From Candidatus Zipacnadum vermilionense (GTDB taxonomy: Bacteria > Armatimonadota > Zipacnadia > Zipacnadales > Zipacnadaceae): DNA of 64,000 nt. Under the pieces are notes generated by a model that did no database searches, was not told where the DNA came from, and was given only the letters and a program-made list of their open reading frames with translations. The DNA is taken from assembly GCA_029821755.1 (NCBI GenBank), contig JALGSV010000009.1:62001-126000 (forward strand), given 5' to 3'. The translations under genes were made by a program, and so were the position numbers. Shown piece after piece: positions 1,794-63,415 of this stretch. Position 1 is the stretch's first letter. Each line of letters opens with the position of its first letter.

Positions 1794-2769
1794 AGGCTCT
1801 ACACCGTCCTTGGTTGTCCAGCCCCGTCGGGGCGGAGGAGAGGCCGCTGCGTTCCACCAGCGTTGCCCCGCAGTCGGCGCATTCCGTGTCCGTCGTGCCG
1901 GGCAGACTGAAGTTACCCACGTACACGTGTTTCATGTGCTCCCGGGCCAGATGGTAGGCGCGCAGCAGCGTCTCCGGGGGCGTGGCTGGCGCGTGTAGCC
2001 GGTAGGCGGGATGGTAGCGGGACAGGTGCACCGGCATCGCCGGGTCCACGCTTGCCGCCCAGGTGAAGATGTTGGTCAGTTCCTCGTCGCTGTCGTTGTA
2101 ACCGGGGATGATCAGCACCGTGATCTCCACGTGGCACGACTCACGGGCCCTCACCACCGTATCCCGCGCCTGCCAGCCCGGCCCCCCGCACAGCTTGCGG
2201 TAGTGCTCCTTGCTCCAGAACTTGATGTCCACGTTCATGGCATCAATCAGCGGCAACAACTCCCGCAGCGGCCCCTCCTCCACCACGCCGTTGGTCACCA
2301 GCACATTCTTCATCCCCGCATCCCGGATCAGTTTGGCCGTATCCTGCACATACTCGTACCAGATGAAGGGCTCGTTGTAGGTGTAGGCCAGGCCCAGGTT
2401 TCCCCGGTCGTGCGCGTACTGCCCGGCCACCCGCGCCGCCTCGCCGGGCGCCATGTACCGCGTAGGCGGCTGCTCCTTGGATATTTGCCAGTTCTGGCAG
2501 AAGCTGCAGTTCAGATTGCAACCGAAGGTCCCCAGCGAGAGGATGTTGCTGCCCGGATGAAAGTGGTAGAGCGGCTTCTTCTCAATGGGATCGAGCGACA
2601 TGGAGGTGATGCGCCCATAGTTGAGCGAGTGCAGCACCCCCTCGTCATTGCGCCGGACCTTGCAGACCCCCACCTCTCCCGGCTTGATCCGGCACTGCCA
2701 CGGGCACAGATGACAGGCCGCCACTCCCTCCCCCGGTTCCCACCAGCGGCATTCCACCGTGTTGGACAT
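1765..2769 (-). CDS. amrS: AmmeMemoRadiSam-type radical SAM enzyme (AmrS-like)
   Basis: A 334-aa radical SAM protein. The cluster-binding cysteines are C84, C88 and C91 in GCNLNCSFCQNWQ, the CxxxCxxC signature. An N-terminal cysteine group (CHLCPWQC...GVCKVRR) and a C-terminal pair of CxxC motifs (CADC, CRAC) form the zinc-like ends typical of AmrS and pyruvate-formate-lyase-activase-like proteins. The family often travels with an AMMECR1 protein and a MEMO protein, but neither is in this window. It is transcribed ahead of the UbiB-like gene, whose start lies inside its 3' end, so the two are probably translationally coupled. The substrate is not established. Confidence 0.88.
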   Translation of the reverse strand: MSNTVECRWWEPGEGVAACHLCPWQCRIKPGEVGVCKVRRNDEGVLHSLNYGRITSMSLDPIEKKPLYHFHPGSNILSLGTFGCNLNCSFCQNWQISKEQPPTRYMAPGEAARVAGQYAHDRGNLGLAYTYNEPFIWYEYVQDTAKLIRDAGMKNVLVTNGVVEEGPLRELLPLIDAMNVDIKFWSKEHYRKLCGGPGWQARDTVVRARESCHVEITVLIIPGYNDSDEELTNIFTWAASVDPAMPVHLSRYHPAYRLHAPATPPETLLRAYHLAREHMKHVYVGNFSLPGTTDTECADCGATLVERSGLSSAPTGLDNQGRCRACGAQTNIRT

Positions 2770-2854
2770 GGACGATCACACCCCACTTCCTTACGCAACG
2801 CGGCAGGAGCCCCTGAATGTCCGCCCGCTCCAACCTTGCTCCCCCGCCCGTCAT

Positions 2855-2924
2855 TTGCGACTCTCGACCTCCGACTTCGGCCCTCCCCCTCCCCACTGAC
2901 ACTGTCGACTGCGGACTGACACTC
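2855..2924. repeat. Short heptad-period tandem repeats (family H), copy 1
   Basis: Read on the minus strand, this spacer contains GAAGTCG-GAGGTCG-AGAGTCG, three 7-bp units in a row. A second block follows whose core CAGTCGACAGTGT is repeated exactly near position 7350. It lies between the NagA gene and the radical SAM gene. No open frame or hairpin explains it. Confidence 0.5.
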
Positions 2925-2941
2925 ACCCTCCTCACTCCCCC

Positions 2942-4132
2942 CTACTCCACCTTCCTCCTCAATTCCCCCTCCTTAGCATAAACGAATCTCCCGCCCACCA
3001 GGGTCGCCCAGACCGACTCGTCGTGGTCTAGAATCACCAGGTCTGCGTCACGCCCCGCCGAGATCCGCCCGGTCCGACCCAGCTCCCCCAAGATCTTCGC
3101 CGGCGTTGCTGAGGCCATGGCCGAGGCCTGACTCAGGGTCACGTCGGCATACTCCATCATGTTGCGCAGGGCCACCTCCATCGTCAACACCGTTCCCGCC
3201 AGCGTCCCTCCCGGACCGCCCTGCCGCACCTCCCCCCGGGAGAGCACCGTTAGGTACCCCTCCCGCTCGTAGACCCCGTCCGGCAGGCCGGAGACGAAGG
3301 AAGCGTTGGTGATGATAGCCGTGTTGGCGGTGCGCTTGACCTGGTAGACCAGCCGGACCATGCTGGGCGCCAGATGCAGGCCATCACAGACTACCTCGGC
3401 GGTGACCCGCCCGTCGGTGAGCAGCGCGGAGGTCACGTTCAGGTGCCGGTGGTGCATGGCGGGGGAGGAGTTGAAGATATGGGTCGCCACGCGCGCCCCC
3501 CAGGCAATGGCCTTGCGCGTCTCCTCGAAGTTGGCCCCGCTATGGCCGATGGCCACGGCGATCCCCTGCTCGTGCAGCCAATGAATGGCATGCATCGCCC
3601 CAGGCACTTCCGGCGCCAGGGTGACGATACGCAGGGAGTGCTCGGAGGCCTCCCACAGCTTGTTGAGTTCCTCCAGTCCCGGCTCCCGGATGTGCTCCGG
3701 CCGCACCGCCCCGGCGAACTGGGGGCTGAGGTACGGCCCCTCCAGGTGAATCCCCGCAATCCGCGCCCCCACCGGCTGCTCCCGCCGCACCTCGGCGATG
3801 GTGTGCACGGCCTCCAGCAACTCCCCCTCCGACCGGCCCCACATGGTGGGCGCCAGGCAAGTGGTGCCATGCTCGGCCCGCTGCCGGCAGATCTCCCGGA
3901 CAGCCTCGGCCGTGCCCTCGGCGAAAGAATGCCCCACCGCCCCGTGGACGTGGCACTCGACGAACCCCGGCAGCACCACCCGTCCACCGACGTCGATCTC
4001 CTCGGCCCCCGAGGGCGCCGGCACCGTCTCTGGCGAGCCGATGGCCTCGATATGGGTCTCATGGATCAGCAATTGCGTAGGCAGCGGCGGCGCCGCCCCA
4101 CAGAGGATCTGGGCGTTGTGTATTAGTAGCAT
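2942..4132 (-). CDS. nagA: N-acetylglucosamine-6-phosphate deacetylase (NagA)
   Basis: Amidohydrolase of 396 aa that removes the acetyl group from GlcNAc-6-phosphate, the committed step of amino-sugar catabolism. Marks seen in order are GFVECHVHG (HxH metal site), HLEGPYLSPQFAG (substrate loop with the metal-binding Glu), GHSGANFEE, THIFNSSPAMHHR, CDGLHLAP and the C-terminal GRISAGRDADLVILD typical of amidohydrolases. The ATG chosen begins MLLIHNAQ, where homology starts; an in-frame GTG/ATG 15 codons upstream is not needed. The matching deaminase and a sugar kinase lie about 23 kb away (27.1-29.1 kb), so the pathway is split over two loci. Confidence 0.93.
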   Translation of the reverse strand: MLLIHNAQILCGAAPPLPTQLLIHETHIEAIGSPETVPAPSGAEEIDVGGRVVLPGFVECHVHGAVGHSFAEGTAEAVREICRQRAEHGTTCLAPTMWGRSEGELLEAVHTIAEVRREQPVGARIAGIHLEGPYLSPQFAGAVRPEHIREPGLEELNKLWEASEHSLRIVTLAPEVPGAMHAIHWLHEQGIAVAIGHSGANFEETRKAIAWGARVATHIFNSSPAMHHRHLNVTSALLTDGRVTAEVVCDGLHLAPSMVRLVYQVKRTANTAIITNASFVSGLPDGVYEREGYLTVLSRGEVRQGGPGGTLAGTVLTMEVALRNMMEYADVTLSQASAMASATPAKILGELGRTGRISAGRDADLVILDHDESVWATLVGGRFVYAKEGELRRKVE

Positions 4133-4247
4133 GGTGGCTCGATCATTCCGCGTGGGGCAAAGTGCATTCCGACGCACAGGACTTCCCCGCCAGTGCGAGG
4201 TGGAAGCGCGGTGTCCCTTCCCGCCGTTACTCGCGAGTCCCTCCCCC

Positions 4248-30033: not shown

Positions 30034-30113
30034 TCCGCGTGGGGCGGGCTTCCAGCCCGCCACGGGAGCCGCATGTCCATGGGATGGCGGGCTGGAAGCC
30101 CGCCCCACGCGGA
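30034..30113. repeat. Paired palindromic element (family B) between convergent genes
   Basis: Perfect 29-bp inverted arms (outer sequence TCCGCGTGGGGCGGGCTTCC) flank a 22-bp centre. The element lies between the plus-strand creatininase-like stop and the minus-strand HEAT-repeat stop. Each arm also contains its own small GCGGGCT/AGCCCGC dyad. The very stable stem would suit bidirectional transcription termination, or a REP/BIME-like element. Confidence 0.75.
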
Positions 30114-43336: not shown

Positions 43337-43363
43337 GGGCCCGCCCGGGGGCAAGGGGCTGCT

Positions 43364-43394
43364 GGGCGGGCTAGAAAGCCCGCCCCACGCGGAG
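43364..43394. repeat. Palindromic element (family B) overlapping a ribosome-binding site
   Basis: GGGCGGGCT, a short loop, AAGCCCGCCCCACGCGGAGG. The stem is a single-arm copy of the paired element near 30.1 kb. Its terminal GGAGG lies in position to serve as the ribosome-binding site of the phosphodiesterase gene. Confidence 0.65.
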
Positions 43395-49038: not shown

Positions 49039-49069
49039 GAGCGTGGGCTGGAAAGCCCGCGCCACGCGG
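49039..49069. repeat. Palindromic element (family B), single-arm copy
   Basis: GCGTGGGCTGGAAAGCCCGC followed by GCCACGCGG. It lies in the gap between gatC and the upstream Pro/Ala-rich gene on the same strand. Confidence 0.6.
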
Positions 49070-50893: not shown

Positions 50894-52846
50894 ATGACCA
50901 AGAGCGGGCTTAGCGTGCGAGCCCTGATCATCGGTTGCCTGCTGGCCGCGGCCGCCACGGCCGCAGTCGCTTTTGGCGAGTGGGTGCGCAGCACCCAGAT
51001 GGGGATCATCCAGTTCGCCCCGGCCGCCGTCGGGTTGCTGCTGGTCGTGGCCCTCGCCAACCTGGCGCTACGCAACCTCGGCCCCCGCCTGGCACTCAAG
51101 CCGGGGGAGATCGTCATCGTTTACGCGATGGCCCTGGTGGCGGCCCTGGTGGCCTCCCGCGCCGTGTTGGAGAAGTTGATCCCCACGCTGGTACTCTCCA
51201 ACTACTTCGCCACCCCGGCTAATCATTGGGCCGAAGTGCTGTTCCCCCACATGAAGCAGTGGGCGGTGCCGTGGGACATCGGCGGCGGGGCCGTGCAGAC
51301 GGTGTCGCGCACCTTCTACGAGGGCGTCGCCCCCGGGGCGCCGATCCCCTGGGCGGCGTGGATCGGGCCCCTGGGCGCCTGGGCGATCTGCATCAGCCTG
51401 TTCATCTTTGCCTACCTGTGCCAGGCGGCCATTCTCCGCCGCCAGTGGGTGGACAATGAGAAGCTGGCCTTCCCCCTCACCATCCTGCCGCTGGAGATCG
51501 CCACCGACCAGGCGGGACCGCAGTCGTTCTTCCGTAACAAGGTGATGTGGCTGGGCCTGCTCATCCCCGTGGCCATCCACACGCTCAACGGGCTGCACGC
51601 CAACTACCCGGCCTTGCCCAAGATCACGCTGAACTACGACATGGGTAACGCCTTGCGCGCGGCCGGGCGGCCCTGGGACTCGGCCGCCGGCTGGACCTAC
51701 ATCCAGCTCTCCCTGGGCGCCCTGGGCTTCTTCTACTTCCTGCCCGCCGAGCTGCTGCTGACGATGTGGATCTTCTTCTGGTTCGGGCGGGCGGAGAACA
51801 TCGTCTTCGGCGCCTTTGGGGCCCCCTTTGAGGGCATGCCGATGTACCCCACCTCGCTGTGGAACGGCTACCAGAGCGCGGGGGCCTTCCTGGTACTGGC
51901 GGGGTACATGACCAAATCGGCCTGGCCCTACCTGCGGCAGGTGTGGCAGACGGTAGTGGACCCCTCACGCCAGGAGGAGCGGGAGTTGCTGCCGCTGCGC
52001 CTGGCGGTGGTGGGCCTGGCGGGGGCCGCGCTCGGGGCGGCGGTCTTCTTCTGGAAGCTGGGCATGACCCCCGGCATCGCCCTGTTGCAGGTCACGGGCT
52101 TGCTGTTCGTGACCATTCCGGTGATGGCGCGGTCGGTGAACGAGGTGGGGCTGCTGGAGACGGAGACCTCGTGGCGGCCGATTGACTTCGTCACCATGTT
52201 CACGCCCATCCAGAGGGTGGGCACGCAGACAATGACGGCCTTGTCGCTGACCGACGCCGTGTTCATGCGCGACCAGCGCGGCAACTTGCTCAGCTCGTTC
52301 CTCGACTGCCTACGGCTGGCGGACCGGGTGAAGCTGGACCGTCGCGCCTTGCTCTGGGCCCTGGTGGGAGGGCTGGTAATCTCCCTGGTCCTGGGCGGCT
52401 TCCTGGGGGTCGCGCTGCCCTACCGGCTGGGCGCCATCCAGATGGATAACTACATCTACCAGGGCACGCCGCTGTGGATGGCCAGCGACACGGCGGCCAA
52501 CATGCAGGCCACGCCCCAGGCAGACCACCGCCTGCCGCTGTTTTTCGGCTCGGGAGTGCTGATTACGCTGGCGCTGACCTTCCTGCGGACGCGCTACCTG
52601 TGGTGGCCACTGGCGCCCATCGGCCTGGCGCTGTCGGGGACGTGGGGGATCATCACCTTCTGGTTCACGATATTCATCGCCTGGCTGATCAAGACGATGA
52701 TCATGCGCTACGGAGGGATGCGGGTCTTTATGGCTCTGCGGCCCTTCTTCCTGGGGTTGATCCTGGGGGAGTTCCTGTCGGCAGTCGTGTGGGCAGCGCT
52801 AGCAGCGATTTGGCGGCTCTATCCGCCGCCGTTCTTCCTGGGATAG
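50894..52846 (+). CDS. DUF6785/DUF6784-like multi-pass membrane protein
   Basis: A 650-aa integral membrane protein with about twelve helices (for example IIGCLLAAAATAAVAFGEWV, IVIVYAMALVAALVASRAVL and LITLALTFLRTRYLWWPLAP). Soluble loops carry conserved-looking patches NEKLAFPLTILPLEIA and RSVNEVGLLETETSWRPIDF. Proteins of this layout, distantly like OPT transporters and common in Armatimonadota and Planctomycetes, are annotated DUF6785/DUF6784. Function is unknown; solute transport is plausible. The ATG chosen has only a weak AGGA upstream. It converges on the GH51 gene with a paired palindromic element between the stops. Confidence 0.75.
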   Translation: MTKSGLSVRALIIGCLLAAAATAAVAFGEWVRSTQMGIIQFAPAAVGLLLVVALANLALRNLGPRLALKPGEIVIVYAMALVAALVASRAVLEKLIPTLVLSNYFATPANHWAEVLFPHMKQWAVPWDIGGGAVQTVSRTFYEGVAPGAPIPWAAWIGPLGAWAICISLFIFAYLCQAAILRRQWVDNEKLAFPLTILPLEIATDQAGPQSFFRNKVMWLGLLIPVAIHTLNGLHANYPALPKITLNYDMGNALRAAGRPWDSAAGWTYIQLSLGALGFFYFLPAELLLTMWIFFWFGRAENIVFGAFGAPFEGMPMYPTSLWNGYQSAGAFLVLAGYMTKSAWPYLRQVWQTVVDPSRQEERELLPLRLAVVGLAGAALGAAVFFWKLGMTPGIALLQVTGLLFVTIPVMARSVNEVGLLETETSWRPIDFVTMFTPIQRVGTQTMTALSLTDAVFMRDQRGNLLSSFLDCLRLADRVKLDRRALLWALVGGLVISLVLGGFLGVALPYRLGAIQMDNYIYQGTPLWMASDTAANMQATPQADHRLPLFFGSGVLITLALTFLRTRYLWWPLAPIGLALSGTWGIITFWFTIFIAWLIKTMIMRYGGMRVFMALRPFFLGLILGEFLSAVVWAALAAIWRLYPPPFFLG

Positions 52847-52853
52847 GGCAGGT

Positions 52854-52952
52854 CCGCGTGGCGCGGGCTTTCCAGCCCGCGCAGCAGACTGCTTGCCTAA
52901 GGGGAGGGCGGGCTGCGAATCGGAATTCGCTTAAAGCCCGCCCCACGCGGAG
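52854..52952. repeat. Paired palindromic elements (family B) between convergent genes
   Basis: The left unit CCGCGTGGCGCGGGCTTTCC... faces a right unit GGGCGGGCT...AAAGCCCGCCCCACGCGG. The right unit also holds a GCGAATC/GATTCGC-type dyad. It lies exactly between the stops of the DUF6785-like and GH51 genes, the same setting as the element at 30.1 kb. Confidence 0.7.
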
Positions 52953-60670: not shown

Positions 60671-63415
60671 TTGAATAAAGACACCTCTTCTTCCCCTATC
60701 CCCCCTCAGGAAGCTACTGCCTGGCATACGCTGGAGGTGGCCGAGGTCGCACAGCGGCTGAACAGCGACCCGCAAGGCGGGCTAACCGGTGCCGAGGCCG
60801 GAACACGTCTGGCCGAGTATGGGCCAAACCAACTGGAGCGCAGCCGCGGCACCAGCGCTGTAGTGATGTTCTTGCGGCAACTGGTGGAACCGCTGATGTT
60901 GCTGCTGATCGCGGCAGCGATCGTCTCGGCGCTGGTGACCCACGAACTGACGGACAGCGCCGTCATCGCTGTTATCGTGATTCTCAGCGCCCTGCTGGGG
61001 TTCAGCCAGGAGCGCCGCGCGCACAAGGCGCTGGAGGCGCTGCGGGCGCTGTCGGAGCCCTCGGCGCGGGTGATCCGCGACGGTCAGCCGCGCGAAATCC
61101 CCGCCGCGGAGGTCGTACCCGGCGACGTGCTGCTGGTGGACGCGGGGATGCGGATGGTGGCCGATGCGCGGGTGGTGGAGGAGGCCAGCCTGGAGGTGGA
61201 CGAGGCGTCGCTGACCGGAGAAGCCTACCCGGTCGGCAAGCAGGTGGCGTCGATTGCCGACGCGCAGGCTCCGCTGGGCGACCGCGCTAATCTGCTGTAC
61301 ACGGGTACGGTGGTTACCCGGGGGCGGGGGCGGCTGCTGGTGGTTGGGACCGGGATGAACACGGAGCTGGGCAAGATCGCCACGCTCCTGGAGGAGACCG
61401 GGGAGACCACCACACCGCTGCAGCGGCGACTGCACAAGGTGGGGCAGATACTGATCGTGGTGGCGGTGGTGATCTGTGCCGTGGTGATGGTGGCGGGGCT
61501 GCTGCGGCAGCACTCCCTGGAGGAGATGTTCCTCACCGCGGTGTCACTGGCGGTGGCGGCGGTGCCGGAGGGACTGCCGGCGGTGATCACCATCGCCCTG
61601 GCCCTGGGGGCGCAGCGAATGGTGCAACGGCAGGCGCTGATCCGGAGACTGCCGGCCGTGGAGACGCTGGGGTCGGTTACCGTCATCTGCACCGACAAGA
61701 CGGGGACACTAACCGAGGGAGCGATGCGGCCGGCGAAGGCGTGGACGGCGGAGGGGGAGGGCAGGACGCGAATCGGGGATTCGCGAGAAGGCGCGCCCCA
61801 CGCGGACAGCGCGGCCTATGCACTGCTAGAGGTGGCGGTACTGTGCAATGACGCGCATCTGCCGGTAACTGAGGCCGGGGAGCCAGACTGGGCGCAAGCA
61901 ACCGGGGATCCGACGGAGATCGCCTTGCTGGGCGCGGGGCTGGGAGCGGGGCTGCGGCGGAAGGAACTAGCCGCATTGTACCCCCGCGCAGATGAGATTC
62001 CCTTCGACTCAGATCGCAAGCGGATGACCACGATTCACCCGCAGCCGGAGGGCTCGCCCACGCCATACTTCGCGGCGGTCAAGGGTGCGCCGGATGTGGT
62101 GCTGGCGCGGAGCGAGCGGGTGCGAGTGGATGGCGAAGACCGACCGCTGGACGAGGTGACCCGCGAGCGGATCGCGGCGGAGATTCGGGAGCTGTCGGAG
62201 GAGGGCCTACGGGTACTGGCAGCGGCCCGTGCGCCGCTGAGCGAGATTCCGGATGACTCCTCGGCCGACCTCGCCGAGCGGGATCTCGTCTTCCTGGGGT
62301 TAGTGGCACTGCAAGACCCGCCGCGCGCGGAGGCGGCCTCCGCGGTGGCCCGGGCGCGGGAGGCGGGCGTCCGCACGGTAATGATCACCGGCGACTATGC
62401 CGCCACGGGGGCAGCGATCGCCGAGGAGGTGGGCCTGCGCCGGCCCGGGGGCCGGGTGATGGAGGGGCGGGAACTAGCGGAGCTGAGCGAGGAGGAGCTG
62501 GCGGAGCTGGTGCCGGAGGTCGACGTCTACGCCCGCGTCTCTCCCGCGGACAAGGTCAAGGTGGTGGAGGCGTGGCAGCGGCGCGGGGACATCGTGGCGG
62601 TCACTGGTGACGGCGTCAATGACGCGGCGGCGCTGCAGCGGGCGGAGATCGGGACGGCCATGGGCCAGACGGGGACGCAGGTGGCCAGAGATGCGGCGGA
62701 CATGGTCTTGCTGGACGACAACTTCGCCACCATAGTGGCGGCTATTGAGCAGGGGCGGATGATCTACGACAACATCCGTAAGTTCATCCGCTACCTGCTG
62801 GGCACCAACACCGGGGAGATCTGGACGATCCTGGGCAGCATTATCTTCGGCTGGCCGTTGCCGCTGCTTCCGGTGCAGATCCTATTCGTCAACCTGGTCA
62901 CCGACGGCCTGCCGGCGCTGGCCCTGGGCTTTGAGGCGGCGGAGGGCGATGTGATGCGCCGCCCGCCCCGGCCGCCGCGGGAGAGTCTGTTCGCGCGGGG
63001 GATGGGCCTCAATATTCTGTGGACGGGGCTGGTGATGGCGGTGCTGACGCTGGGCCTGTTCTGGTGGGACTGGTCGCGCGCCGCCGATCTGGTCCACGCG
63101 CAAACCCTGGCCTTCTTCACGCTGGCCGGGCTGCAGATGGCTAATGTGCTGTCGGTGCGGATGGAGCGGGAGCTGGTCTTCGGTCGCAATTTCTTCACCA
63201 ACCCGCGCCTGCTGGGGGCGGTGGCGATAACGGCATCGCTGCAAGTAGCGGTGACCTACGTGCCGATGCTCCAGCGGATATTCAAGACCACAGCACTGAG
63301 CTGGATCGAGATGGGGCTGGGCCTGGCGGCGTGCGTGGGGTTCTTCCTGCTGTCGGAGGGAGTTAACTGGGTGCAGATTGTGGCGGAGAGGAAGAGGGCA
63401 CACCAGGAGGCGTGA
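60671..63415 (+). CDS. Calcium-type P-type ATPase (PMCA/SERCA-like)
   Basis: A 914-aa P2-type ATPase. The actuator domain has LTGEAYPVG, the phosphorylation site is [10 protein letters not shown] with Asp341, the nucleotide domain has KGAPD, and the hinge is [12 protein letters not shown]. Transport-site motifs VPEGLPAV (TM4), NTGEIWTI (TM5) and [13 protein letters not shown] (TM6) match the SERCA Ca2+ ligands. The TTG start lies 12 bases after AGGAG. Residues about 365-379 (within [18 protein letters not shown]) are encoded by a dispersed palindromic repeat inserted in frame between the phosphorylation site and the nucleotide-binding core. It should expel Ca2+ across the cytoplasmic membrane. 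Confidence 0.93.
61764..61806. repeat. Palindromic element (family B) inside the P-type ATPase gene
   Basis: GCGAATCGGGGATTCGC followed by GAGAAGGCGCGCC and the CCACGCGGA tail matches the right-hand unit at 52.9 kb (GCGAATCGGAATTCGC...CCCCACGCGGA). Here it is read as protein without breaking the frame. Confidence 0.7.

Follow-up and report, generated by a model that had tools for sequence, protein, structure and literature searches.

The Ca2+-transporting P-type ATPase of Candidatus Zipacnadum vermilionense carries, within its reading frame, a segment that is a member of the genome's own REP family. Having analysed the window (the whole stretch of DNA under study, 64,000 nucleotides long), we put a probability of roughly 80% on the reading that this segment goes back to a REP expanded in this species, has decayed, and has been retained because it is open in frame and lies in a variable surface loop. 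The initial annotation had described a dispersed palindromic repeat translated in frame inside the pump, and the sequence bears this out: the dyad GCGAATCGGGGATTCGC precedes the tail GCGCCCCACGCGGA, whose last base is 61806, and both are read in the frame of the ATPase (Table 1). A resemblance to an intergenic repeat of the window had also been claimed, and the match proves to be longer than described, covering the whole hairpin unit at 52903-52951 with agreement at 41 of 51 aligned positions. The remaining 10 positions differ or are gapped, marking the ATPase segment as a diverged copy in which the outer stem pairs poorly and the inner hairpin is intact.

Table 1. Positions of the host gene and of the repeat units in the window
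Feature	Coordinates	Strand	Evidence
Ca2+-transporting P-type ATPase (type II), 914 aa	60671..63415	+	Pfam E1-E2_ATPase, Cation_ATPase_N/C
Degenerate class-B REP unit, in frame in the ATPase, residues 364-379	61760..61806	+	nhmmer 21.1 bits and breakpoint against the orthologue L032
Inner dyad GCGAATC-GGG-GATTCGC (GCGAATCGGGGATTCGC) of the class-B unit	61768..61784	.	exact palindrome; as a single strand the unit folds at -15 kcal/mol, z -2.85
BIME-like inverted REP pair, intergenic: unit 52853-52880 (-) on the left, class-B unit 52903-52951 (+) on the right	52853..52951	+	HMM matches
Class-A inverted REP pair, 80 bp, ends TCCGCGTGG...CCACGCGGA	30034..30113	.	HMM matches 30034-30062 (-), 30083-30113 (+)
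Single class-A REP unit	43363..43393	+	HMM match, E=1.7e-8
Degenerate class-A REP unit	49045..49069	+	HMM match, E=0.017
Class-C variant, CCCCACGCGGA tail after a different hairpin CCTGTGCGTCGGAATGCAC	4147..4191	-	sequence

The best NCBIfam match of the host protein is TIGR01522, with a score under the cut-off of that family, and the protein aligns with the solved Listeria Ca2+-ATPase lmo0841 at 603 bits. The closest relative compared is a same-genus orthologue (L032, genome G001) with 73-74% protein identity. DNA homology to this orthologue reaches 61759 and ends where the REP unit begins, at 61760. The bases GGAG (61756-61759) are common to both genes and represent ancestral gene sequence, so the element-specific DNA is 61760-61806. 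In an AlphaFold2 model of the ATPase (mean pLDDT 77.7, from a 23-sequence alignment), a short predicted strand at residues 365-367 leads into coil at 368-380 with a pLDDT of ~58-63, and this modest-confidence coil is consistent with a tolerant loop.

The repeat family to which the segment belongs was counted through its tails. In the 4.39 Mb genome, the tail GCCCCACGCGGA has 113 copies compared with 3 for the reversed control, and CCCCACGCGGA has 121 genome copies compared with 7. Our census found 134 repeat clusters in 2.77 Mb of stretches out of the 4.39 Mb, many of them picked for holding the tail, so that cluster density is biased and the in-gene fraction less so. Several forms of the family can be told apart: class A reads GGAGGGCGGGCTAGAAAGCCCGCCCCACGCGGA, class B carries an additional hairpin within the loop (GGGCGGGCT-GCGAATCnnnGATTCGC-TTAAAGCCCGCCCCACGCGGA), and class C attaches the family tail CCCCACGCGGA to another hairpin. 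Units are single or form inverted pairs of ~80-100 bp with outer ends TCCGCGTGG and CCACGCGGA, and the fold energy of a family unit is -12.9 kcal/mol (z -4.94). The unit ends are TCCGCGTGG and GGAG, CGTC is absent from them, and the conserved TCCGCGTGG located 5′ of the hairpin gives GTGG rather than GTAG at the place of the tag. The BIME-like pair of the window lies between convergent ORFs ending at 52846 (+) and 52953 (-), and copies akin to the class-C variant are present at L117:3763, L105:4820, L154:7690 and L160:10480. The inner GCGAATC hairpin is also found within unrelated stems (L089:9696-9724, L160:1768-1804). Exact 11-mers number only 6 and 14 in the two same-genus genomes and are at about the control level in most other genomes; given so few tails in the same genus, despite Y1_Tnp genes in several relatives, the expansion looks recent or species-specific. 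Separately, a second dispersed palindrome with the end CCGGTGCCACC (59 exact copies compared with 15 reversed in 2.77 Mb) is located at L119:13642 (upstream), at L089:9696-9724, and in L154 and L128, and it too is read in frame within GH2 and within a ketoacyl-synthase-like gene.

Membership of the ATPase segment in this family was assessed with a class-B profile HMM made from five other genomic copies, with the ATPase copy left out. Searched with nhmmer against 2.77 Mb, the model finds 61756-61806 at full length (21.1 bits, E=6.6e-4). Among the nulls, reversed sequence scores no higher than 11.8 bits and 11 Mb of block-shuffled sequence (four shuffles) no higher than 12.1 bits, and ATPase homologue loci (1.1 Mb) score at most 8.1 bits. 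These values bear on the alternative that native loop codons form a palindrome and an 11-base tail match by chance, with no historical tie to the REP family. Such a coincidence would accord with the loops of relatives, which are equally long or longer here, and the reversed control predicts about 7 chance occurrences among the 121 exact 11-mers. However, it is the whole 51-base unit that matches, at 9 bits over the best of the 11 Mb of shuffled sequence, and the frame of the ATPase copy is that of the other in-gene units. A chance match was rejected on the HMM nulls; because the whole-length match exceeds them and the gene departs from its orthologue at the unit start, we consider a chance origin very unlikely.

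The wider anatomy of the family indicates what kind of element it is. On contig C71 (L094), inverted REP pairs at 2594-2672 and 3210-3285 flank a gene at 2686-3180 that is a REP-associated tyrosine transposase (RAYT), matching NCBIfam NF047646 REP_Tyr_transpos at 93.2 bits (cut-off 80), with a Pfam Y1_Tnp score of 22.4 that is slightly below the cut-off of 23. L094:2594-3285, with the RAYT between two REP pairs, shows REPtron anatomy, and its position suggests that the RAYT, an HuH single-strand transposase, may have spread the REP units. The initial annotation had likened the repeat to the Rickettsia RPEs. Because the units pair in inverted orientation and two pairs flank the RAYT, we instead assign the element to the REP/BIME/RAYT family; membership among the RPEs was rejected on the tag, which lacks CGTC, and on the RAYT linkage.

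In-gene copies, which the initial annotation had proposed to count throughout the genome, do recur. When the 134 repeat clusters were scored with a fifth-order coding model that had been trained on long ORFs, 8-10 of them, depending on the threshold, had coding signal on both sides. All of these keep the same frame and are open throughout, with no frameshifts and no stops; were frame irrelevant, nine of nine in-frame cases would have a probability of ~5e-5. Besides the ATPase, at least seven genes of the genome carry in-frame copies. Family searches identify the hosts as ObgE (L118), RimO (L152), Mfd (L154), a PcrA/UvrD-like helicase (L120), GH2 and an unassigned protein (L119), GH95 (L259) and a PMT_2 glycosyltransferase (L098), while a ketoacyl-synthase-like host (L089) was judged from sequence only and L085 is one weaker first-pass case. 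The host proteins are unrelated, as are the insert sites. In the majority of these genes the sense units use one frame, EGGLESPPHA(E/D) or near, and the ATPase copy does likewise (EG...PHAD). The C-terminal part of the L120 helicase has, in addition, a near-tandem peptide repeat of its own, SAGVSPVWGGSAVSPPGNAGVSPVRGGSAVSPPG, which may be a further translated repeat.

For four of these hosts, tblastn breakpoints allowed insertion to be deduced, and in 4 of 4 genes tested there is a net insertion of 22-32 residues that is absent from relatives. In RimO, a complete inverted REP pair (L152:8559-8635, +) is translated in the radical SAM domain, adding ~25 residues that relatives are without. The pair encodes residues 194-219, and the alignments of relatives end at query ~190-193 and restart at 219-220 with 3-12 bases between (e.g. 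G003, G004, G006, G008, G009, G016), giving 27 aa compared with 1-4 aa in relatives. The corresponding spans are 29 query residues versus 7 in G002 for ObgE (L118:10912-10935), 37 versus 5 in G002 for Mfd (L154:6165-6196, -), and 28 versus 2 in G002 for the PcrA-like helicase (L120:12937-12957). Two of these last three are DNA-repair-type genes.

It had been expected that the insert would be missing from relatives of the ATPase while its flanks aligned without a gap. This clean-insertion signature is present in RimO, ObgE, Mfd and the PcrA-like helicase and is absent from the ATPase itself. The flanks of the ATPase segment do align colinearly with the orthologue, but the loops of most homologues are equal or longer: DKTGT and CND are separated by 45 residues in the ATPase, by 56 in the same-genus orthologue and by a median of 55 among homologues. 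A clean insertion in the ATPase was rejected on these lengths. The loop is variable across the family, and in the solved Listeria Ca2+-ATPase, which has a naturally short loop, DKTGT-to-CND spans a few residues fewer. Because the ATPase loop is shorter than those of its relatives, not longer, insertion as such is not demonstrated there, and the REP element sits where relatives have ordinary, unconserved residues. The ATPase case is accordingly a replacement, or an insertion with deletion, since homologues carry as many or more residues at this place. After DKTGT, the loop of the G001 orthologue holds a purine tandem repeat, GGAGGCGGGAGGCGGGAGGCGAGAGGCGGGAG, which suggests that the loop tolerates low-complexity DNA. 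The idea that the purine repeat GGCGGGAGGCGGGAGGCG of this loop is a dispersed one was dropped, as the 2.77 Mb sampled from G000 hold no exact copy of it.

The simplest history for the segment is that an insertion cost the gene some of its native loop codons. A REP copy would have landed in the loop with which the nucleotide-binding domain begins, and the native loop DNA may have been lost with the insertion or later. The alternative of a clean insertion into a loop that had become shorter in the lineage beforehand, the event itself removing no DNA, draws on the rule seen in the four other genes and on the naturally short loop of the Listeria pump. However, the only same-genus orthologue has a full-length loop, so that a prior extra deletion must be assumed, and we regard this history as rather unlikely. 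A misassembly that put intergenic repeat DNA into the gene is scarcely credible. The genome is fragmented into 115 contigs and repeats favour such errors, but no other copy found has the sequence of the ATPase unit, the frame stays open to either side of it, the flanks are colinear with the orthologue, and the same pattern is repeated in many genes.

The exact preservation of the inner hairpin beside a decayed outer stem could also be taken as a sign that the repeat peptide was recruited for pump function, or that the hairpin has a role in the gene as RNA or DNA. We find this highly improbable, as neither the host proteins nor the insert positions are related to one another, which is the pattern of tolerated insertions, and the ATPase loop is variable in the family and is modelled as low-confidence coil. 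Most likely, the REP-encoded peptide is without a function of its own, and the predicted effect of the segment on the pump is probably near neutral. The reading that we favour, a decayed REP copy retained in a variable loop, would follow from a general course of events in which single-stranded REP hairpins mobilised by the RAYT insert at many sites, and in-gene copies last only when they are in frame, open and in tolerant loops, purifying selection presumably having removed the out-of-frame insertions.

Intragenic GTAG and CGTC REPs have been described in many bacteria, often in repair genes and with most copies in Opitutus terrae and Rickettsia conorii (PMC3733652). The initial annotation had viewed the ATPase as an independent case of in-gene palindromes in a high-GC bacterium, but in-frame REPs of free-living bacteria, repair genes included, were already published in 2013 (PMC3733652), so it is not the first. 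The system is similar to the REP/BIME and RAYT (REPtron) systems of the GTAG superfamily (PMC3733652, PMC8266576), sharing a short hairpin with a conserved sequence on one side, copies dispersed in large number, an arrangement in inverted pairs, some of which flank a RAYT, and in-frame copies in genes that include repair genes. The role of the tag in such systems has been described (PMC8266576). Most REPs carry GTAG, whereas the putative tag here reads GTGG and lies inside the longer conserved arm TCCGCGTGG; a GTGG variant is reported for most Opitutus terrae GTAG-20 elements (PMC3733652). Class B, with a second hairpin in the loop, is a further difference from REP/BIME and RAYT systems. As with Rickettsia RPE-1, RPE-4 and RPE-6, the palindromic repeat is both intergenic and in frame in unrelated proteins. 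R. conorii RPE-4 and RPE-6 are tied to CGTC REPs, and CGTC repeats seem to be without a dedicated transposase (PMC3733652), whereas the units described here have no CGTC ends and flank a RAYT; the two are set apart by tag and RAYT linkage. The units are also like bacterial MITEs and enterobacterial RU repeats (PMC2759123, PMC2229807) in being small, non-autonomous and sometimes translated, but here there are single ~33 bp units that lack terminal inverted repeats, and the enzyme to which the units are linked is an HuH tyrosine transposase.

The phenomenon is known in other bacteria, and the novelty lies in the REP family, in its class with nested hairpins, and in the list of host genes whose sites are empty in relatives. 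The presence of copies in Mfd and the UvrD-like helicase echoes the earlier remark on repair genes (PMC3733652). It is tempting to speculate, though we consider it doubtful, that RAYT-driven REPs repeatedly add peptides of ~20-30 residues to core proteins, with the EGGLESPPHA frame giving a soluble, turn-rich product, the repeat being shaped for tolerated translation, and the nested-hairpin class B being a second-generation form. Our analysis adds a RAYT-linked REP family that is translated in core genes (rimO, obgE, mfd), for which relatives show the empty state, and these natural examples can be used to ask how mobile hairpins turn into protein segments and what decides which frames and loops survive.
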